Positions 5,576-55,530 of a stretch of DNA of 64,000 nt are shown here, piece by piece. The notes beneath the pieces were generated by a model. It saw only the letters and a list, made by a program, of their open reading frames with translations, was not told the DNA's origin and did no database searches. Location: the NCBI GenBank assembly GCA_017435465.1, contig JAFSEX010000019.1, forward strand, positions 1-64,000, given 5' to 3'. Source of the stretch: Bacilli bacterium. GTDB taxonomy: Bacteria; Bacillota_I; Bacilli_A; RF39; UBA660. Both the position numbers and the translations under genes were made by a program. Each line of letters begins with the position of its first letter. Position 1 is the first letter of the stretch.

Positions 5576-6454
5576 ATGTATCTAGAAGATTTTATAAATT
5601 ATTTAATAATAGAAAAAAAACTTAGTGATAATACAAAAAAATCTTATTATAATGATTTAAAAAAATATATAGATTTTTTAAATCAAAAAAATATTAATAA
5701 TCCGTCACTTATAACACAGAAAGATATAGTTTCATATATTGAATATTTGAATAATGAGAAGTGTTCAATGAAGACGATATCGCATAATATTACATGTATT
5801 AAGGAATACCATAAATATTTACTTAAAGATGGAATATTAAAAGCTGATTGTAGTGAAAATATTAAAAGTCCAAAGTTGAAAAAAAGTTTGCCTCATGTTT
5901 TATCAATTGAAGAAGTAGATAAACTATTAAATATTAAATTATCTAATGCTTTTGATTACCGAAATAAAGCAATGATAGAACTTATGTATTCTTCAGGACT
6001 TAGAGTTAGTGAATTAGTATTTCTAGATTTACAAGATATAAATTTAAATATGGGCACTGTTAGATGTCTTGGGAAAGGTAGTAAAGAAAGAATTATTCCA
6101 ATTGGGGATGTTGCCTTAGAATATTTAGAAATATATATAAATGAATATAGAGATAGTATGAAAAAAGGATATTTATGTGATAAGTTATTTTTAAATAATC
6201 ATGGTAAAGAAATGACAAGACAAGGTTTCTTTAAAATACTTAAGAAAATAGCTAAAGATCAAGATATAAAAACAGAATTCTCACCACATACCCTAAGACA
6301 TTCATTTGCAACCCACTTACTTGAATATGGTGCAGATTTAAGAAGTATACAAGAACTACTCGGACATGAAGATATTTCTACAACACAAATATATACTCAT
6401 ATATCAAATAAAAAAATTAGGGATGAATATAATATGAGTCATCCAAGAAGTTAA
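5576..6454 (+). CDS. xerD: Site-specific tyrosine recombinase, XerD type
   Basis: A 292-residue tyrosine recombinase of the length expected for XerC/XerD, which resolve chromosome dimers at dif. The N-terminal SAM-like DNA-binding domain covers about residues 1-90. The catalytic set is complete: Arg in SSGLRVSEL (near 143), Lys in GKGSKER (near 169), HTLRH (near 238-242), His in LLGHED (near 264) and nucleophile Tyr in TQIYTH (near 273). A strong AGGTGAGGG site precedes the ATG. The phosphohexomutase follows after 17 bases, like the xerD-phosphomutase order in Bacillus, which is why I prefer XerD over XerC. A dif-like site lies at 25599-25626 in this window. Confidence 0.85.
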   Translation: MYLEDFINYLIIEKKLSDNTKKSYYNDLKKYIDFLNQKNINNPSLITQKDIVSYIEYLNNEKCSMKTISHNITCIKEYHKYLLKDGILKADCSENIKSPKLKKSLPHVLSIEEVDKLLNIKLSNAFDYRNKAMIELMYSSGLRVSELVFLDLQDINLNMGTVRCLGKGSKERIIPIGDVALEYLEIYINEYRDSMKKGYLCDKLFLNNHGKEMTRQGFFKILKKIAKDQDIKTEFSPHTLRHSFATHLLEYGADLRSIQELLGHEDISTTQIYTHISNKKIRDEYNMSHPRS

Positions 6455-7885: not shown

Positions 7886-8910
7886 AATGGATAGAACGGA
7901 TCTATTTTTTTCAAAGTTTTATAGGCTTTTTCATCTTTGATATCCTTACTATCATAATAATTATTAAAATATAAATAGTCACTAACCACACACTTACCAA
8001 AATTTTCATTTAATTCAAATTCCAAAAGTATTTGTTGTAAGGTTGAATTATCAATTAAATTTAAATATTGAATATCATCTTTGTTAAGATAATCTTTTTC
8101 ATTCTTTTTTAAATAAGTTAATCTATAGTAAGTAGAAATTACCATTAATGTTAATAATCTATTTAATTTTTCTTTATTATAAAAATTTTCTCCAAAATAA
8201 TATTCATAATATTCTTCATTTAAGCTGAATTTTGAACACAGATAATTATAAATTAAACTGATTGAACTATTATCTAAAGAACCATTTATAAAATTATAAT
8301 TATGAAAATTTATTAGAAATTCTTCACAAACTTCTTTTATAAAACGTATATTTTTTTCTTCATAAAAATCATAATTTGGTTCAATAAATAATATTTTATT
8401 TTCATCTTCAATTGAAATTGTAAAATTCGTAAGAATTTTATTGAATAATTCTTCGTTTTTTTGCATTGTATCTAATAATTCATTATCAGGAAGATCATTA
8501 ATATAATTTAATAGTTCTATTTCTTCATTACCATCATCATATTCTTTAATATAGTCATCAATTAAAAAATTTATGATTTTAATTTTAGTTTCATCACTAA
8601 TTTCTTCAGTTTCATTAATATAATCTATTAAATCATTTGTTGCTTCTTCGATCAAAATATAATCGGAAAATTCAATACAAATATTTTCTGGATTCATATC
8701 ATTAATATAATAAATGGCATCTTCCTTAGTTTCAAAAAAAGTAGGTTTATCCTCATTTTCGTTATGCACCCATATTAAAAGATCAATATCTTCATAATAA
8801 TCATCCTCAAGAATTTCTAATGCAGAATCAATATCATATTCAATTGGTTTCTTCATAAATAATTTATATTTTGTTTCCAAAAATTTTTTTATTAATGCCT
8901 CTATTTCCAT
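7876..8910 (-). CDS. Hypothetical acidic protein, unrecognised
   Basis: A 344-residue protein I do not recognise. It is very rich in Asp, Glu, Asn, Ile and Tyr, with no signal peptide, membrane segment, cysteine motif or obvious catalytic pattern. It looks like a soluble, mostly helical protein with long acidic stretches. The ATG follows a GGGGGATTTATC-type ribosome site. It is one of only two - strand genes left of the terminus, set between convergent and divergent neighbours, so it has its own promoter and was perhaps acquired separately. Possible roles (nucleic-acid mimic, immunity or anti-defence protein) would be speculation. Confidence 0.7.
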   Translation of the reverse strand: MEIEALIKKFLETKYKLFMKKPIEYDIDSALEILEDDYYEDIDLLIWVHNENEDKPTFFETKEDAIYYINDMNPENICIEFSDYILIEEATNDLIDYINETEEISDETKIKIINFLIDDYIKEYDDGNEEIELLNYINDLPDNELLDTMQKNEELFNKILTNFTISIEDENKILFIEPNYDFYEEKNIRFIKEVCEEFLINFHNYNFINGSLDNSSISLIYNYLCSKFSLNEEYYEYYFGENFYNKEKLNRLLTLMVISTYYRLTYLKKNEKDYLNKDDIQYLNLIDNSTLQQILLEFELNENFGKCVVSDYLYFNNYYDSKDIKDEKAYKTLKKIDPFYPLNK

Positions 8911-18639: not shown

Positions 18640-19644
18640 ATGATTAAAATTTTTAAAAAATTTAAAAACATTGTAATTAGTATTACACTATCTCTACTCA
18701 CTATTATACCCAGTAATGTTTTAGCTTATTCAGATAAAATAATTCCAGGTGGTGAAAATATTGGCATACAAATTGATACAAAAGGTATAATGATTGTTGG
18801 ACTTTATAAAGTAAATGATATTTATCCTGGACGTGAAGCTAATTTAAAAGTTGGAGATATAATTACTAAAGTAAATGATGAAGTATGTGAAAATATTTCT
18901 GAAATGGTTAAAAAAATAGAAAATTTAGAAGATAAAGCCAATATTAAAATAACTTATTTAAGAAATAGCGCTGAAAATGAAACGACTTTAAAATTAGTTA
19001 AACAAAAGGATAATGTATATCGTACTGGATTATATGTTAAAGACTCAGTAAATGGTATTGGTACACTAACATATATTGACCCTGAAACTAAGTTTTATGG
19101 TGCATTAGGACATGAAATAATAGAAACTAATTCAGGTAAGAGACTTGATATAAAAGATGGAAAAATCTATAAATCAGATGTTACAAGCATAGATAAAAGT
19201 AGTAGGGGAAATCCAGGTGAGAAAAACGCTAAATATTATCCAGAAGAAGTTTTTGGTAATATAAAAGAAAATACAACTTCTGGTATATTTGGTACTTATA
19301 CTGATGAACTTCCAAATAAAGATACATTAAAAGTTGGTACAAAAGAAGATGTTAACCTTGGTAAAGCAACTATTAGAACAGTTTTAGAGGGTAACAAAAT
19401 TGAAGAATTTGAAATTCTAATTACTAAAGTTGACTATAATCTTGCTAGTACAAAAAATATTTTATTTGAAATAACTGATGAAAAACTTCTTACAAAAACA
19501 GGTGGAGTTGTTCAAGGTATGAGTGGTAGTCCAATAATTCAAAATGATATGATAATAGGCGCAGTTACACACGTGATAGTAGATGATACTACAAAAGGAT
19601 ATGGAATATTTATAACTACAATGTTGGAAGAAGGTGAAAATTAG
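18640..19644 (+). CDS. spoIVB: SpoIVB family serine peptidase
   Basis: A 334-residue exported PDZ-serine peptidase of family S55. In spore formers SpoIVB is secreted from the forespore and signals pro-sigma-K processing in the mother cell. Visible parts: N-terminal signal/anchor (about 10-30), PDZ domain (about 50-120, with ANLKVGDII), catalytic His in YGALGHEI (near 157), and a GVVQGMSGSPII nucleophile loop (near 289) before VTHVIVDD. The start is uncertain. The ATG at 18640 is embedded in AAGGAGATGATT, itself almost a full-length Shine-Dalgarno sequence; an ATT at 18649 sits at ideal spacing and no other usual start is near. The gene follows xseAB, as in the broader Bacillus region. Confidence 0.88.
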   Translation: MIKIFKKFKNIVISITLSLLTIIPSNVLAYSDKIIPGGENIGIQIDTKGIMIVGLYKVNDIYPGREANLKVGDIITKVNDEVCENISEMVKKIENLEDKANIKITYLRNSAENETTLKLVKQKDNVYRTGLYVKDSVNGIGTLTYIDPETKFYGALGHEIIETNSGKRLDIKDGKIYKSDVTSIDKSSRGNPGEKNAKYYPEEVFGNIKENTTSGIFGTYTDELPNKDTLKVGTKEDVNLGKATIRTVLEGNKIEEFEILITKVDYNLASTKNILFEITDEKLLTKTGGVVQGMSGSPIIQNDMIIGAVTHVIVDDTTKGYGIFITTMLEEGEN

Positions 19645-22063: not shown

Positions 22064-22693
22064 ATGAGAAAATTATTCAAAATAATAAACGTAGAATTTA
22101 AAAAACATAAAAAATTACTAATATTTGTAACAATTCTTCTAACAATTGGATTAATAACTGGATCACTATTTATTACAATTTTAAATGATAGCGATAAAAA
22201 ATTAGTGTTAGAAACAATTACTAATTATTTTAATCAAATAAAATTAAATAAAGTTGATTTTTTATATTGTCTTAGGACAAGTTTAATATCTAATTTAATA
22301 TATATATTATTCATTTGGTTATTGGGTATATCAATAATAGGAATTCCTTTAATATTATTTTTAATTTTTATTAAAAGTTTTATATTAGGTTTTTCAATTG
22401 GTTCAATTATATGTAAATATGGTTTTAGTGGAATATTATTATCCCTTAGTTATACATTTCCACATCATATTATAAATATTATAATTGTAAGTTTTATTGG
22501 ATTATATGCGCTAAAAGTATCCTTATCTTTATTTCAATTAATATTTAGTAAGAAACAAATTAATTTTAAAATAATTATTAGAAAATATTTTGGTGTGTTA
22601 ATAATTACTATTATACTTGCAATCATGTCTTCTTTGATTGAAACATTTATTACACCATACTTTATTAATTTATTTTCTTTTCTTATTAAATAG
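22064..22693 (+). CDS. spoIIM: Stage II sporulation protein M (SpoIIM)
   Basis: A 209-residue integral membrane protein with about five hydrophobic helices, beginning with a short basic cytosolic tail. The pattern of a first helix near 20-42, a short extracellular loop, then helices near 70-115 with a GFSIGS stretch, PHHIINI near 142, and a final pair of helices fits SpoIIM. SpoIIM joins SpoIID and SpoIIP in the complex that degrades septal peptidoglycan during engulfment. A SpoIIP gene is present at 29860-30888; SpoIID is not seen here. Monocistronic, with a GGGTGAAG site. Confidence 0.85.
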   Translation: MRKLFKIINVEFKKHKKLLIFVTILLTIGLITGSLFITILNDSDKKLVLETITNYFNQIKLNKVDFLYCLRTSLISNLIYILFIWLLGISIIGIPLILFLIFIKSFILGFSIGSIICKYGFSGILLSLSYTFPHHIINIIIVSFIGLYALKVSLSLFQLIFSKKQINFKIIIRKYFGVLIITIILAIMSSLIETFITPYFINLFSFLIK

Positions 22694-22811: not shown

Positions 22812-23924
22812 ATGGATAAAAAAGTTATTGTTGGAATGAGTGGGGGAGTTGACTCTTCAGTTGCGGCGATTCTATTAAAAGAACAAGGATACGTTGTTGA
22901 AGGATTATTCATGCGCAATTGGGATAGTATGATGAATAATGATATTTTAGGTAATCCCGATTTAGAAAAAAATGATATTTGTCCTCAAGAACAAGATTAT
23001 AATGATGCTTTAGAAGTTTGTAAAAAACTTAATATTCCTTTACATAGAGTAGACTTTGTAAAAGAATATTGGGATTATGTATTCGAGTATTTTTTAGATG
23101 AATTAAAACGTGGTAGAACTCCTAATCCAGATATAATGTGTAATAAGTTTATTAAATTTGATTTATTTATCAAAGAAGCTAAAAAACTAGGTGCAGATTA
23201 TATCGCAACAGGCCATTATGCTAGACTAAAAGATGGTAAGTTACTAAGGGGTTTAGATAATAATAAAGATCAAACATATTTTTTATGTCAGTTATCAAAC
23301 AATCAACTTGATAATGTATTATTTCCAGTAGGAGATTTAAATAAAAGTGAAGTTCGTGAAATAGCTTCTAAATTTGATTTAATAACTGCAAATAAAAAAG
23401 ATTCAACCGGTATATGTTTTATTGGGGAGAGAAACTTTACAAATTTCTTAAAAAATTATCTACCAAATCAACCTGGTAAAATAATTGATATTGACACTAA
23501 TGAAGTAATTGGTGAACATATTGGACTTATGCATTATACTATTGGACAACGTAAAGGTATTGGTGTATCTGGAAATAAAGAAAAATTATTTGTTGTAGGT
23601 AAAAACATTGAAGATAATATCTTATATGTTTCATTTGGAGATGATAGTGAATACTTATATTCAGATGAAGCAATAATTGAAGATATGAATTTTATTAGTG
23701 ATTTAAGACCAACTAATGCAAGCGCAAAATTTAGATATAGACAACAAGATATTCCAGTTGAAATTGAATATATTGATGAAAAACATATAAAAGTTAGATA
23801 TCCTGAAAAAGTACGAGCGGTAACACCTGGACAAGCATGTGTATTATATTTAGGTGAAGAATGTCTTGGTGGGGGAATTATTAAAGAAATAAGAAAAAAC
23901 AATGAAAAGTTGTGGTATTTATAA
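22812..23924 (+). CDS. mnmA: tRNA-specific 2-thiouridylase MnmA
   Basis: A 370-residue enzyme that thiolates U34 of tRNAs for Lys, Glu and Gln, using ATP and a persulfide donor. The PP-loop GMSGGVDSS lies near residues 8-16. The two catalytic cysteines are visible in NPDIMCNKF (near 110) and TGICFIGE (near 202). A GHYAR motif lies near 135, and a C-terminal beta-barrel ends in LGGGIIKE. The length is standard. GTGGTGAG ribosome site; own promoter and a hairpin-bearing leader. Confidence 0.95.
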
Positions 23925-24000: not shown

Positions 24001-24771
24001 ATGGAAGAACTTAACAAAGTTTTACAAGAATTAGATATTTCAAAAGTTCGTTTAGCAAAATTCTTAGGTGTTTCTAGACAAATGGTATATAACTATTTAG
24101 ATAGTGATAATTTGGAGAAAATGCCTACAGATAAAAAATTAAAATTATTTGACTTATTAAATATTGAAGATTTAAATGATTTAAAAAAACTTAAAATTGA
24201 TGCTGAATATTCAATGGAAATAGATTCTAAATTAAATCAAGGAGTTAAGAGAGTTTCAAACGAGAATACAACAGTTGATTTAAAAGGATTAAACAAAAAT
24301 GATGCTGAAATTTTAAATAATATTTTCAATTATATTAAAGATAAATTAATGGATGATAAAACAGATACATCATCAAATATATTTAAATATTTATATCATT
24401 TTTTACAATCAATGGACAATGCTAAAGAGTTAAAATATATTTTAGGTTATGTTTCAAAATCTACTGGATTTACTGATCCTAATAAATTTGTTTTTAATGA
24501 AGACCAACAATTTATTTTTGAAGGTATTATGTATTCAGCAATGACATTATATACTAATGGTGGAGCATCAAAAAGTAAAGTTGCTGAATCCCATAGACGT
24601 TGGGTTTCTGAAATTGAAGCTAAAAAAGAAGAAAAATTAAGTAGAACTCAACAATTAAATTCTGCTAAAGTTCAAGCTTTAAAAGAACTTGGTTATTCTG
24701 AAATAAATGAAACTAATGCTGGCGAAGTATTAGAAAAAATAGCAGAAATTCAATCTAGAAATGTAGTTTAA
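24001..24771 (+). CDS. Helix-turn-helix (XRE-like) regulator, unknown targets
   Basis: A 256-residue protein. The start is the ATG at 24001, 8 bases after GGAGG; the longer upstream frame runs across the promoter. Residues about 1-60 form a lambda-repressor-like helix-turn-helix (DISKVRLAKFLGVSRQMVYNYL). The remaining 190 residues are helical and charged, with no recognised sensor domain: a central region (near 95-175) with ILNNIFNYIKDKL and a C-terminal coiled-coil-like stretch with KKEEKLSRTQQ. The strong promoter suggests an abundant DNA-binding protein. A terminator and then the small peptide gene at 24853 follow. Confidence 0.75.
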   Translation: MEELNKVLQELDISKVRLAKFLGVSRQMVYNYLDSDNLEKMPTDKKLKLFDLLNIEDLNDLKKLKIDAEYSMEIDSKLNQGVKRVSNENTTVDLKGLNKNDAEILNNIFNYIKDKLMDDKTDTSSNIFKYLYHFLQSMDNAKELKYILGYVSKSTGFTDPNKFVFNEDQQFIFEGIMYSAMTLYTNGGASKSKVAESHRRWVSEIEAKKEEKLSRTQQLNSAKVQALKELGYSEINETNAGEVLEKIAEIQSRNVV

Positions 24772-24852: not shown

Positions 24853-25029
24853 ATGGAATTAACAAATGAACAATTAAATAAAGTTATTGCAGGTAATTCA
24901 CATGGGATGAGTGAAGATGCTGCACTTCAAAATGAAAATCTATATAGAGAAAAAATGATTGAAAAATTAAAAGAAGAAAAAGAAAAATTGATTGATAATA
25001 ATCAAAAAAACAATAACAAAAATAAATAA
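24853..25029 (+). CDS. 58-aa charged peptide with leader-like N-terminus
   Basis: A 58-residue ORF with an excellent AGGAGGA site (24839-24845). It starts MELTNEQLNKVIAG, which resembles double-glycine-type peptide leaders (acidic or polar helix, Leu at -7/-4-like positions, ending in AG). What follows is a hydrophilic helical stretch rich in Glu, Lys and Asn, not a hydrophobic bacteriocin core. It is unlikely to be a classical bacteriocin; a signalling peptide or a small structural protein is possible. No transporter or modification gene is adjacent. The transcript probably ends at the terminator at 25147-25177. Confidence 0.65.
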   Translation: MELTNEQLNKVIAGNSHGMSEDAALQNENLYREKMIEKLKEEKEKLIDNNQKNNNKNK

Positions 25030-25146
25030 TATTTTATACAAAATTTAACAGTAAATCATTTAATTTAATAAAACATTCAGTTTCTTATATACTTTTTTTA
25101 ATATTTTGTATTGTATTAATTATAATCAATTTATTAAGTGGAATAT
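25030..25146 (+). other. Possible start-less membrane peptide frame
   Basis: Between the 58-aa gene and the terminator there is an open frame ending at the TAA at 25146-25148 that encodes a basic stretch followed by a strongly hydrophobic helix (SYILFLIFCIVLIIINLL). It has no ATG, GTG or TTG and no clear ribosome site. It may be a remnant, a chance AT-rich hydrophobic frame, or use a non-standard start. Confidence 0.25.
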
Positions 25147-25177
25147 AAAAAATCACAAAATTTATTGTGATTTTTTT
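25147..25177 (+). terminator. Terminator after the small peptide gene
   Basis: AAAAAATCACAA / TTGTGATTTTTT stem (25147-25158, 25165-25176), a 6-base loop and a T run. Confidence 0.9.
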
Positions 25178-25183
25178 GTTATA

Positions 25184-25598
25184 ACTCCCCTTTTTTATTA
25201 ATAATAAAAATAGGGGAGAGTATGTATTTAGTATTTTTATATTTATATTCAACATATTAAATTTAAATCAATTTAGATGAATAATTCATCAACTATGAAT
25301 TATAAATTTGATTTAAATTTAATAAAAAATATGTAATAATTAATAATATAGTTATATTATAGGATAATGAATAATTAATATAATAATTAAATTAAATAGA
25401 ATTTATATCATAAATGTAATTTTTTTTGTTAAAATAATATTTATATTAATTGAGAGTATAATACAAAATAAATTTAATTATTAAATAATTAAATTTAAAG
25501 TGATGTGCTGGTAATTTGATTAGTTTTAGTAGTGTATAATATAATTATATAGCTGATAAAATTGATAATATATACTGTATATATTACCTATACTATTC
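25184..25598. other. Palindrome-rich AT-rich non-coding region beside dif
   Basis: No gene is visible here. The stretch holds a CTCCCC...GGGGAG hairpin (25184-25217), a large imperfect inverted repeat whose outer 16 bp are perfect (about 25257-25323), a 13+1+13 bp perfect palindrome (25470-25496) and a short palindrome around the CTG near 25570. It separates the last + strand gene from the convergent murF and ends at dif. Such a gap between opposing replichores fits a replication terminus. Confidence 0.7.
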
Positions 25599-25626
25599 AC
25601 TTCCTATAATATGTATTATGTTAACT
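25599..25626. other. dif: dif chromosome-dimer resolution site
   Basis: The 28 bases begin ACTTCCTATAAT and end TATTATGTTAACT. Compared with the Bacillus subtilis dif sequence as I recall it, 25 of 28 positions agree, with both XerC/XerD-binding arms retained. It sits exactly where gene direction switches from + to -, which is the expected place for the terminus. A XerD-type recombinase is encoded at 5576-6454. Confidence 0.85.
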
Positions 25627-25645
25627 TCTTTATTTTGGAATTATT

Positions 25646-27025
25646 TTATTCAGATATAATACTATTAACTATCTTATCTAATCCTATTTTTCTAGAACTT
25701 TTAAAATATACTACACTTCTCTTATATTTATTTAAATCTAATTTAATTGAATCAGAAATTAATTTATAATCATTATCAGAATTAATTTTTAATTCTTTTT
25801 TTATTATTTTTAAATTATTTACTGCTTCATTAATGAATTTTATTTCATTTCCTGAAGTATATAATACATCTATATTGCTAGAATTAATTAATGTACCAAT
25901 TTTATGATGATAATATTTGCTCCACTCCCCTAGTTCTAACATATCGCCAAGGTAGAGTAGAATGTGATATTTTTTTTGATATTTTTTTAAAACAAACTCA
26001 ATACCACTTTTCATAGAATCGTAATTAGCATTATAACTGTCATTTATAATTAAATTATTTTTATATTTAATTAATTCCATTCGCATTTTAGGATTTTTAT
26101 GTAATTTAAGATATTTTTTAATTTTATTAGGTTTTATATTAAAATGTGACGCTATTTTATATGCTAGAATAGAGTTAATTAAATCAAACTCCCCTACTTC
26201 ATTAATTTTAATTTTTTCTCCTTGTATTTTAAAATTAATCTTATTATTCTTTCTTTTTAAATCAGTTATATCATCATAACCATATCTACATATATTTAGA
26301 TGATTATTTAAATTAATAGAATTTAAATAATCATCTTCTTTATTTAAAATAAGTAATCCATTTTCTTTTAATCCAGTACATATCTCTAATTTAGCTTTCA
26401 AAATGTTTTCTCTTGAACCTAGTAAACCTATATGTGCGGTACCAATATTTGTAATAATTGCGATATCAGGAAGTGCTATTTTACTTAACTTTTCAATTTC
26501 ACCTAAATGATTCATACCCATTTCTAAAATACATATATCATGTCCTTTTAATTTTAAAAGAGTTAAAGGTAATCCAATATGATTATTTAAATTACCTTCG
26601 GTTTTTAAAACATTATAATCATATTTTAATACATCATATAATATATCTTTTGTGCTAGTTTTACCATTACTTCCTGTAATTGCAATTAAAATTGTATCTT
26701 TATTTTTTAGTCTATTATGGTGTGCTAATTTTGACAATGCTTCTAGGGTATCATCAACCTCAATAAGTGCAATATTTTTCTTTTTACATATTCTAATTAT
26801 ATTTTTCTTACTTTTATAATTTTTAGTAATTAAACACCCCACTACCCCATTTTTAATAGCATCTAATATAAAATCATTCCCATCATATTTTTGTCCAATA
26901 ATCGGGATAAAAAGGCCATTAGAATTCACTTTTTTACTATTAGTAGTAAATGTATCTATATTTTTAGAATTGTCATATATTAAATTTCCATTAATTATTT
27001 TACTAATTTCTTTAGCAGTATACAT
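25646..27025 (-). CDS. murF: UDP-N-acetylmuramoyl-tripeptide--D-Ala-D-Ala ligase
   Basis: A 459-residue cytosolic Mur ligase that adds D-Ala-D-Ala to the UDP-MurNAc tripeptide, completing the peptidoglycan precursor. The N-terminal domain starts with the MurF-type YTAKEISKIINGNL and TNSKKVNSNGLFIPI. The ATP loop ITGSNGKTSTK lies near 112. LEMGMNHLGEI near 164, TNIGTAHIGLLGS near 186 and NDSYNANYDSM near 325 are MurF landmarks. AGGAG site 8 bases before the ATG. It is the first gene of the right arm, convergent on the terminus, and appears to be expressed alone. Confidence 0.95.
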   Translation of the reverse strand: MYTAKEISKIINGNLIYDNSKNIDTFTTNSKKVNSNGLFIPIIGQKYDGNDFILDAIKNGVVGCLITKNYKSKKNIIRICKKKNIALIEVDDTLEALSKLAHHNRLKNKDTILIAITGSNGKTSTKDILYDVLKYDYNVLKTEGNLNNHIGLPLTLLKLKGHDICILEMGMNHLGEIEKLSKIALPDIAIITNIGTAHIGLLGSRENILKAKLEICTGLKENGLLILNKEDDYLNSINLNNHLNICRYGYDDITDLKRKNNKINFKIQGEKIKINEVGEFDLINSILAYKIASHFNIKPNKIKKYLKLHKNPKMRMELIKYKNNLIINDSYNANYDSMKSGIEFVLKKYQKKYHILLYLGDMLELGEWSKYYHHKIGTLINSSNIDVLYTSGNEIKFINEAVNNLKIIKKELKINSDNDYKLISDSIKLDLNKYKRSVVYFKSSRKIGLDKIVNSIISE

Positions 27026-27167: not shown

Positions 27168-28025
27168 ATGAATGAATTATTAACAACAGAAAATAGAAAA
27201 ATAGAAAATTTAATTTATGAAATTAGAGGAAAACAAGTAATGTTAGATTCAGATTTAGCAAAACTTTACCAATGTAAAAATGGAACTAAAGAAATTAATC
27301 AAGCAGTTAAAAATAATCCATTAAAATTTCCAGAAAGATTTTGTTTTCAACTAACCAATGAAGAACTTATAAATTTGCGGTCAAAATTTTTGACCACAAA
27401 TATTAATAATATGTCTAGGAGTAACCCCAAGGTATTTACAGAACAAGGAGTTGCAATGTTAGCAACAATACTAAAAACAAAACAAGCTACAATTACTAGT
27501 ATAGCAATTATGGATGCCTTTGTTTCAATGAGACATTATATATTAAATAATACTTCAGAACAAAAATATATTAACAAAATGGTTTTAAAACATGATGATG
27601 AAATAAAGACTTTACAAAATATATTTGAAAAATTTAAACCACATAATAACCATATATTTTACAAAAATCAAATATATGATGCCTACTCTCTTTTGTTAGA
27701 TATATTTAATAGTTCTAAACAAAATATCATTATTATAGATAATTATATAGATAAAGGTCTATTAGATCTATTGTCAAAAACTAAAAAAGATATATTAATT
27801 ATTACAAATAAATATAATAATGAAGATTATGAAAAGTATAAACAACAATATAGTAATATAAAAATAAAGATTTCTAATTCATTTCATGATAGGTTTATAA
27901 TAATAGATAACAAAATTTTATATCACTCAGGTGCGTCTTTTAAAGATTTAGGTAAGAAATGTTTTACACTTAGTAAAATTGATGAACAAAATATTTTGGA
28001 TAGCTTAATAAGAAAAATTCATTAA
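27168..28025 (+). CDS. ORF6N domain protein with PLD-like C-terminal domain
   Basis: A 285-residue protein. Residues about 8-100 are an ORF6N domain: NLIYEIRGKQVMLDSDLAKLY, then NNPLKFPERFCFQLTNEE, then KVFTEQGVAMLATIL. This is a DNA-binding module typical of phage and mobile-element proteins. After a helical linker, residues about 165-285 resemble a small phospholipase-D-like fold: NIIIIDNYID, ILIITNKY, and a C-terminal HDRFIIIDNKILYHSGAS. The HKD motif is imperfect (HxR...D). It is one of only two + strand genes in the right arm and sits 1.5 kb from dif, suggesting acquisition. Its own promoter and a 19-bp terminator frame it. Confidence 0.8.
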   Translation: MNELLTTENRKIENLIYEIRGKQVMLDSDLAKLYQCKNGTKEINQAVKNNPLKFPERFCFQLTNEELINLRSKFLTTNINNMSRSNPKVFTEQGVAMLATILKTKQATITSIAIMDAFVSMRHYILNNTSEQKYINKMVLKHDDEIKTLQNIFEKFKPHNNHIFYKNQIYDAYSLLLDIFNSSKQNIIIIDNYIDKGLLDLLSKTKKDILIITNKYNNEDYEKYKQQYSNIKIKISNSFHDRFIIIDNKILYHSGASFKDLGKKCFTLSKIDEQNILDSLIRKIH

Positions 28026-29543: not shown

Positions 29544-29870
29544 TTATTTTTCCTTTACAACATCAGATATTGCTTCAAATGAACTATTAATAATTTTTTG
29601 GACATATTCTTCAATTGTTTCAGAAAGTTTTAGACCTACATTAGATACTTTATTTCCATATTCTTTTTTTGTTTGTCCAACATAATCTTTTATATCAACT
29701 TTTTTACCTTCTTTTATATCACGTTCAAACTCTTTAATTTGTTCTTTAGTAAGTGCAACTTTTTTATATTGTTCATATTCATAATATCCAGCTGATTGTG
29801 AAATATATAATGATATAAAAATTATAAATAAAATACTTAGAATTGGTTTAAATATCTTCTCAGGCTTCAT
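29544..29870 (-). CDS. Small single-pass membrane protein downstream of spoIIP
   Basis: A 108-residue protein with one N-terminal membrane helix (about 9-26) and a charged, helical outer domain containing LTKEQIKEFERDIKEGK and IEEYVQKIINSSFEAI. I do not recognise the family. The start overlaps the end of spoIIP by 11 bases, so it is translationally coupled and probably works with SpoIIP, for instance as an accessory or anchor in septal peptidoglycan turnover. That role is inferred from coupling only. Confidence 0.7.
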   Translation of the reverse strand: MKPEKIFKPILSILFIIFISLYISQSAGYYEYEQYKKVALTKEQIKEFERDIKEGKKVDIKDYVGQTKKEYGNKVSNVGLKLSETIEEYVQKIINSSFEAISDVVKEK

Positions 29871-30888
29871 CTACATCACTCTTTATATATTCACTAAGTT
29901 TTTTTGCTAATACTTGTGTAGTATTTTTAACTTCTTCAATCGTATTATCTACTCCACCAAATTCAATTAGTAAAACATTTTTATTTATATCTTGATTATA
30001 TACACCATTAACACCTGGGCCTTCTTTTGCTAAAATTCCTTTACTTATCCCTTTATGAGTTGAATTTAACATTTCATCTAATTTTTTGGCAAATTCCATG
30101 TTATATTTGTAATTTGGATTTTCTAAACCAATAACAAAATATAATTTCGCATATGTTTTACCATTTATTTCTGTGGTTGTATAATTTCTTGAAACTGAAT
30201 CTCTATGTACATCTATAAAATATTTTATACTTTTATTCTTTTCTATCGCATCTTCAATTAAGATTTTAGATGCCCTATAAGCACTAGATCCACCCCACCC
30301 ATTAACTTTTAATAATTCAGTAATATTGGTTTCCTCTACTAATGAATTTATACCATATTTTTTTAATTCTTCTCTTAACATATACGAAGTCATCATAACA
30401 TTAGGTTTAATATTATATACTTCTAAATTATTAGCTGAATAATTTTCTAATTGATGTGAATTATAAATATAAACTATTGGATTTTCTAAATTTTCTTCTG
30501 GATTTGGATCTTCAATATATTTAGATACTTTTTCCAATTCTCCTAAATTTGAATAATCATCATTATCATTACTTGAAACTTTTATAATAGTTGAAGCGAT
30601 ATTATCATCAAGTGCAGTTACAGGTTTACTTATATCAACATTAGAAAATAATTTGAAAAAATTATTAATAAGTTTTGAAGAATCAAAATCTTTTTTTATA
30701 ACGTGATTAGTATCTGATAATAGAACACTAAATATATCTTTATTTGAAATACTAATTTCATGATTTTTTAAATAATTAAAAGTTAGAGTACCCATAAGAT
30801 AAATTCCTAAAATATATAAAATATATTTTAATCTTATTTTTTGTTTCTTCTTAGTTATCTTTTTGCTTTTAAATACGCGTCTAGGCAC
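29860..30888 (-). CDS. spoIIP: Stage II sporulation protein P (SpoIIP) amidase/endopeptidase
   Basis: A 342-residue membrane-anchored peptidoglycan hydrolase. The start is set at the GTG at 30888, six bases after AGAGGTG; an in-frame GTG at 30897 lies in that site. A basic N-terminus and one membrane helix (about 22-42) are followed by a linker to about 140 and the SpoIIP domain: VYIYNSHQLENYS (zinc-binding His), MTSYMLREELKKYGI, WGGSSAYRASKI, KYFIDVHRDS (second His) and LLIEFGGVDNT near the end. It cleaves septal wall with SpoIID and SpoIIM during engulfment. It overlaps the small membrane protein gene at its 3' end. Confidence 0.88.
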   Translation of the reverse strand: MPRRVFKSKKITKKKQKIRLKYILYILGIYLMGTLTFNYLKNHEISISNKDIFSVLLSDTNHVIKKDFDSSKLINNFFKLFSNVDISKPVTALDDNIASTIIKVSSNDNDDYSNLGELEKVSKYIEDPNPEENLENPIVYIYNSHQLENYSANNLEVYNIKPNVMMTSYMLREELKKYGINSLVEETNITELLKVNGWGGSSAYRASKILIEDAIEKNKSIKYFIDVHRDSVSRNYTTTEINGKTYAKLYFVIGLENPNYKYNMEFAKKLDEMLNSTHKGISKGILAKEGPGVNGVYNQDINKNVLLIEFGGVDNTIEEVKNTTQVLAKKLSEYIKSDVDEA

Positions 30889-30965
30889 AATAATCACCTC
30901 TTATTTAATTGTATGATTATTGTAATCTATTAAATGAATATATTTTGTCATATTAACTGGATTGA

Positions 30966-44271: not shown

Positions 44272-44317
44272 TTTTGGCACCTCTTTTTCAATACTATAAT
44301 AAAAAAATAATAATTTT

Positions 44318-44664
44318 AATAAGCCATGTTCTGTACCTATAAATAGGTGACAAACATTTATCTATTGATTAAAAATCAATCTTTCGCATCGGTTCAGTTC
44401 CCTAGCAAAAGTTCCCCTACCATATTTTGGGTTTCTCACTCGTGGGGTTTACCAACGTTCCACTCTTTTTATTTCTAAAAAGCATCGTCACTATGGCACT
44501 TTTATATCTAATTAAACCATATCGTATGACTTAGGTTTGTTCGAAGCCGTTAGTTATAAAACTACTATAGGTTATTGTTTCCCTATACACGAACACTACT
44601 ACCATCACAGGTTAGTGTGAGCATGGACTTTCCTCTACATAGCAAGGTATGCAGCGTTTGTCTA
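44318..44664 (-). ncRNA. rnpB: RNase P RNA, type B
   Basis: The - strand matches the Bacillus-type RNase P RNA skeleton: AGAGGAAAGTCCATGCTC near the 5' end (P4/P3 region), GTGTTCGTG, AAAGTGCCATAGTGACG, GAGTGGAACG, GTAAACCCCACGAGTGAGAA, ACCCAAAATATGGTAGGGG, and a closing ACAGAACATGGCTTA. It is the catalytic RNA that matures tRNA 5' ends. It lies between gpsB and rodZ; gpsB-rnpB adjacency is conserved in Bacilli. Ends are approximate by a few bases. Confidence 0.95.
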
Positions 44665-44671
44665 AAAATTA

Positions 44672-54872: not shown

Positions 54873-54890
54873 GATATCACTTCCATAATT

Positions 54891-55061
54891 CTATTTATAT
54901 ATTATCATCGCACTAAAACAATAAATTTGTTCTTCATGATCTACTGAAACCGCCACTTGAAATTTTATATCTATTATTTCTTTCTCTAATTCAGATAAAA
55001 ACTCATTTACAGAAGTTTCTAAATCTTTTTCATGTGCTTCATCAATTATTTTTACTTTCAT
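54891..55061 (-). CDS. Sporulation protein Cse60 family
   Basis: A 56-residue protein read from the - strand, starting MKVKIIDEAHEKDLE and ending QIYCFSAMIIYK. Length and both end motifs match the Cse60 family, a small sigma-E-regulated sporulation protein of unknown function in Bacillus. GGTGATACT precedes the ATG. It lies just upstream of the SpoVB/YtgP-type flippase, with 18 bases between. Confidence 0.78.
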   Translation of the reverse strand: MKVKIIDEAHEKDLETSVNEFLSELEKEIIDIKFQVAVSVDHEEQIYCFSAMIIYK

Positions 55062-55309
55062 AGTATCACCAATTTTAGGATAATATAAAGTATTTAATTA
55101 ATTTGTCTATTTTTGTTTATAATCAAATTATACCTTAAATAATTAATAATGTTAAGTATTAACTAAATACTATTCAAAAAAATTTGTAAATAAAACGAAA
55201 AAGTTATTTACTAGTTAACTTGAAATATTATATAATTAATATGGATACATTTGAAAAGTCAGATGCTTTCCCTTCTTTTATCAATTGATATTGGAAGGTG
55301 GTGGTTTTT

Positions 55310-55387
55310 ATGACAGAAAGAGAAACTTCTCAATTTATCATAATTCTACTATTATTCTTTATAGTAATAGTTTTACTATTTAAATAA
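55310..55387 (+). CDS. 25-aa hydrophobic membrane peptide, toxin-like
   Basis: A 25-residue peptide: MTERETSQ, then one hydrophobic helix rich in Ile, Leu and Phe, and a terminal Lys. GGAAGGTGGTGG at 55293-55304 is a very strong ribosome site. Size, charge pattern and the self-pairing mRNA recall type I toxin peptides (TxpA/Fst/holin-like), which depolarise the membrane when freed from RNA control. It is one of only two + strand genes in the right arm. The antisense antitoxin RNA was not identified. A small structural membrane peptide is the main alternative. Confidence 0.65.
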   Translation: MTERETSQFIIILLLFFIVIVLLFK

Positions 55388-55436
55388 TAAAACATCTGAT
55401 TTCACAACATGGTGATTTCAGATGTACCCTAATTAA

Positions 55437-55477
55437 GGGAATGCATTTGATTCGCACTATCAAATGTATCCTTTTTT
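55437..55477 (+). terminator. Terminator of the peptide mRNA
   Basis: Stem 55437-55450 with 55460-55471 (one bulge, one G-U), a 9-base loop and six T. Confidence 0.8.
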
Positions 55478-55530
55478 AATTTTATGAAGTTTCCCTCATC
55501 TATATACATAATATCATAAAAATTACTTTT

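Follow-up and report, generated by a model that had tools for sequence, protein, structure and literature searches.

We have analyzed a window of 64,000 nucleotides of bacterial DNA, and conclude that it almost certainly includes the replication terminus of the circular chromosome of an uncultured gut member of the Bacilli, with a dif site at 25599-25626 that would serve the resolution of chromosome dimers by XerC and XerD. We regard this assignment as secure because it draws together the site itself, its uniqueness, its position at the turn of the GC skew, the presence of genes for both recombinases and for a gamma-domain translocase, and the conservation of the site in relatives. The dif site is of an ordinary, textbook type, and dif with XerCD is a system of a kind already known. 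What is new here is the conserved neighborhood of dif. As judged by sequence comparison, a gene for a helix-turn-helix (HTH) protein, xerD and a TAGGGGA repeat are conserved companions of the site.

A single dif site in the window

The site comprises two 11-bp arms flanking a 6-bp center.

25599-25626, + strand: dif site of 28 bp, ACTTCCTATAATATGTATTATGTTAACT
Parts of the site: XerC arm ACTTCCTATAA, center TATGTA, XerD arm TTATGTTAACT

The left arm is assigned to XerC and the right arm to XerD by analogy with the dif sites of Escherichia coli and Bacillus subtilis. The first-pass annotation had proposed agreement with Bacillus dif at 25 of 28 positions. This is upheld, with three mismatches to what we take to be the B. 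subtilis sequence. No match with three or fewer mismatches arose in 100 shuffles of the window. The source assembly is a draft of 65 contigs (1.46 Mb, 86% complete), of which 1,426,636 of 1,461,275 bases were covered. In the assembly the site is the sole match at up to three mismatches, and within the 97.6% covered the runner-up has seven. The expectation that dif should occur once in the genome was thus borne out, and no better site lies elsewhere in the sequence searched.

Gene orientation and GC skew turn at dif

The genes change strand at dif in the manner originally described, + to the left and − to the right. Counting open reading frames (ORFs) of at least 90 aa over the whole 80-kb contig, there are 17 + and 1 − to the left, and 3 + and 44 − to the right. 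The mean GC skew is +0.24 to the left of dif and −0.20 to the right. A turn of the cumulative skew had been predicted at about 25.6 kb, and its maximum is found at 25564, just 35 bp from dif. No comparable turn from + to − was seen on the other examined contigs of at least 8 kb (1.43 Mb). The opposite turn, from − to +, occurs at position 9185 of contig C57, beside dnaA (8241-8741). The direction of the turn at dif fits converging forks, and supports the earlier suggestion that the replichores meet within the window.

The skew turn is not merely a by-product of gene orientation, because intergenic DNA taken alone has a skew of +0.204 to the left of dif and −0.204 to the right. The coding strand accounts for much of the GC skew; measured on that strand, the skew is +0.257 for leading genes and still +0.207 for lagging genes. 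A replication component is also present, since it is seen both in the intergenic DNA and at fourfold sites, where the skew is +0.170 for leading and +0.009 for lagging genes.

The recombinases and the translocase

The genome encodes both recombinases and a translocase with an FtsK gamma domain.

5576-6454, + strand: xerD, 19 kb from dif (TIGR02225, 356.5 bits against a cut-off of 329.6)
1177-2070 of another contig, L003: xerC (350.9 bits against a cut-off of 335.15)
418-2613 of contig L252: FtsK/SpoIIIE-type translocase of 731 aa, with FtsK_alpha, FtsK_SpoIIIE (motor) and FtsK_gamma domains

A single-recombinase system of the difSL/XerS type was considered. It is excluded because there are two recombinases, each scoring above its cut-off, together with a standard 28-mer; the XerS model gave 128 bits against a cut-off of 267.

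From what is known of this family, binding by XerC and XerD, strand exchange and activation by the translocase would be expected to occur at dif. Replication forks setting out from an origin near dnaA would converge in the spacer at 25.0-25.6 kb. When homologous recombination has generated a dimeric chromosome, the FtsK/SpoIIIE-type translocase would join the two copies of dif at the septum. With XerC on the left and XerD on the right 11-bp arm, strands would be exchanged across the 6-bp center and monomers restored. No octamer was both strand-skewed and over-represented relative to a Markov model, so that no KOPS/SRS-like motif can be named. The candidate GAGAAGGG occurs just 4 times in the leading and 0 times in the lagging orientation, and GGGNAGGG 13 times and once.

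dif in related genomes

One dif with at most three mismatches is present in 28 of 60 relatives, while a reversed control sequence gave no matches. A profile built from 38 sites finds a match in 89 of the 117 genomes of the source's bacterial family, single in 88 of these, and none in the other 28. All 18 relatives examined show a drop in GC skew from the left to the right side of dif, and in 12 of them the cumulative maximum lies within about 750 bp of the site. In nine genomes (G017, G023, G064, G074, G078, G098, G103, G114 and G127) dif has been inverted in place between HTH and xerD genes that have not moved. This suggests that either orientation of dif serves equally well, which is what one would expect where a site is approached from both directions.

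The convergent spacer

Three features of the spacer and a small ORF adjoining it are as follows.

25030-25645: convergent spacer, 14% G+C, with an excess of inverted repeats
25147-25176: terminator-like hairpin, AAAAAATCACAA/TTGTGATTTTTT
25184-25219: inverted repeat ACTCCCC...AATAGGGGAG, the TAGGGGA repeat
24853-25029, + strand: small ORF of 58 aa, preceded by GGAGG, no family match

With a G+C content this low, the position of the skew turn has a resolution of a few hundred bases. The description of this gap as the largest in the window holds among ORFs of at least 90 aa, where it measures 874 bp. It fails if the 58-aa ORF is counted, the gap at dif then being probably 616 bp and shorter than the 658 bp at 54873-55530. 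The reported wealth of palindromes is a real excess; the longest perfect palindrome arm (17 bp) was matched in none of 100 shuffles, and the folding z-score is −4.5. The hairpin at 25147-25176 is a putative terminator. A search of the spacer for RNA elements gave no Rfam match at the gathering score or at E ≤ 1. A tRNA attachment site was rejected, the window containing no tRNA. The 58-aa ORF was likewise rejected as a conserved dif-linked gene, with no convincing relative in the loci examined. Its N-terminus, MELTNEQLNKVIAG, resembles leaders of the double-glycine type.

The inverted repeat at 25184-25219 is the sole instance of a CTCCCC-N(8-45)-GGGGAG pair in the covered 97.6% of the genome. 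The repeat recurs near dif in relatives. TAGGGGA is found in 20 of 48 spacers between the HTH gene and dif, against 3.6 expected. The paired form occurs 7 times in 99 kb lying within 1.5 kb of dif and once in 722 kb beyond, and is thus about 50-fold denser near dif, although the numbers are small and the contrast is inflated since spacers near dif are longer than the average intergenic stretch. The element is absent from the HTH-dif spacer in genomes where that spacer is short.

The genes around dif

The genes closest to the site are listed below.

22812-23924, + strand: mnmA (tRNA 2-thiouridylase), a conserved neighbor
24001-24771, + strand: gene for a family-specific HTH protein of 256 aa, located 5′ of dif, with the 3′ end of the gene towards the site
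25646-27025, − strand: murF, convergent, its end 20 bp from dif

The HTH gene is found in 107 of the 117 family genomes, including every genome that carries dif. The only matches beyond the family are weak and partial, and they come from a single other family. Both are on one contig in 81 genomes, and in every one of these the gene's 3′ end is directed at dif, at a median distance of 403 bp (at most 100 bp in 23, 600 bp in 55 and 2.5 kb in 75). The gene and dif share one orientation in 66 of these genomes and are opposed in 15. The gene usually lies close to mnmA in an operon-like pair; in several genomes it stands beside dif though mnmA is more than 1 kb away. Nearly all of 43 members of the protein family have weak matches to Pfam HTH models at the N-terminus, and the recognition helix region SRQM-YNYL is nearly invariant. 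The structure model is all-helical, with good local confidence (pLDDT 84.6, pTM 0.49). Searching the PDB with this model returned just weak matches to Cro/C1-like HTH proteins, all with E > 1.

Linkage extends to xerD. Among 60 family genomes xerD is on the same contig as dif in 45, within 20 kb in 44 and within 5 kb in 35, and in all 45 it is transcribed towards dif. Its distance is commonly 1-5 kb in relatives, compared with 19 kb here. Only 3 of 23 family genomes have the second, XerC-like gene on the contig that carries dif. Outside the family, 34 genomes have xerD and dif on one contig. In 20 of these, from eight families, the two are no more than 10 kb apart; xerD is then invariably located on the side of the XerD arm and transcribed towards dif. 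The other same-contig genomes have it 29-236 kb from the site. In the literature the genes of two-recombinase (XerCD) systems are described as scattered, and a limited search turned up no account of xerD being linked to dif in one of them.

murF holds the same place in a genome of the same genus (G001). The genes spoIVB (18640-19644), spoIIM (22064-22693) and spoIIP (29860-30897) are all situated no more than 8 kb from dif in this reduced-genome lineage. The contig has only three + genes rightward of dif, and one of them, at 27168-28025, is an ORF6N-domain gene of phage type. A class-B (Bacillus-type) RNase P RNA is encoded at 44315-44669 on the − strand (E = 3.4e-89). The order RF39 is reported to carry spoIIM and spoIIP (PMC10868615), and the RNase P class together with spoIIM, spoIIP and spoIVB would fit that order.

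Probable inherited gene order, or a possible terminus module

Why do these neighbors stay beside dif? The explanation that we consider probable is that they merely retain an inherited arrangement where a replichore ends and are not functionally coupled to dif. We favor this on account of the operon-like pairing of mnmA with the HTH gene in most loci. The linkage of xerD is common to other families and so probably ancestral, and all the neighboring genes point to dif, as leading-strand genes do. Simple inheritance is less easily reconciled with the shuffling of spoIVB, spoIIM and murF among relatives while the HTH and xerD genes mostly stay, or with the in-place inversions of dif, which indicate that the segment is not frozen.

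It is possible, if rather unlikely, that HTH-dif-xerD is a functional terminus module, in which the HTH protein binds repeats near dif (TAGGGGA or others) and organizes the terminus or assists Xer synapsis, with selection keeping the linkage. The constant direction and short distance of the HTH gene, its presence in every dif-bearing genome, its near confinement to the family and its position beside dif even where mnmA is distant all point this way, as do the near-invariant recognition helix region and the density of the paired repeat near dif. Against this, the operon-like adjacency to mnmA means that inherited order could explain everything, and TAGGGGA is missing from the short spacers. Moreover, the 10 genomes lacking both the HTH gene and dif are what linkage and missing contigs would produce. 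About equally doubtful is a bolder version of this idea. In it the HTH protein would be a hitherto unknown factor that binds the terminus and, through the spacer repeats, positions dif recombination or permits it, and a two-recombinase Xer system would include HTH-dif-xerD as a selected module.

We find it scarcely conceivable that the 28-mer arose by chance or came from a plasmid or phage, and that a local inversion or an assembly join produced the strand switch. Relatives refute this reading, 18 of them having the site at a skew turn and G001 having the same gene context; zero matches are expected by chance, and nothing was found in its favor.

Comparison with known systems

The site closely resembles the dif of B. 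subtilis, which is acted on by CodV (XerC) and RipX (XerD), in its 28-bp length and sequence, its location at the terminus, its two recombinases and its FtsK/SpoIIIE-type translocase. The present locus differs from that of B. subtilis, whose ripX gene is remote from dif, in having a family-specific HTH gene beside dif, and xerD 19 kb away.

MatP and RTP are DNA-binding proteins that organize the terminus, and the HTH protein may be likened to them as a putative DNA-binding protein whose gene is linked to the terminus. It matches neither in sequence or fold, its only resemblance being a weak one to HTH domains of the Cro/C1 type. No protein like MatP or RTP is known to us from this lineage, and the conserved HTH-dif-xerD neighborhood provides a concrete candidate gene for a terminus factor.

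For an uncultured lineage with a reduced genome, the analysis locates the terminus to within a few hundred bases. In Proteobacteria the median distance between dif and the skew turn is 7.3 kb (PMC2731167); the 35 bp observed here is far closer, with gene orientation adding to the skew in this case. Linkage of a recombinase gene to its own terminus site is known for difSL/XerS and difH/XerH (PMC5357621, PMC2731167), and in this respect the present system is like them. Those systems employ one recombinase and an atypical site, whereas here there are both XerC and XerD, with xerC elsewhere in the genome, acting presumably at a standard 28-mer.
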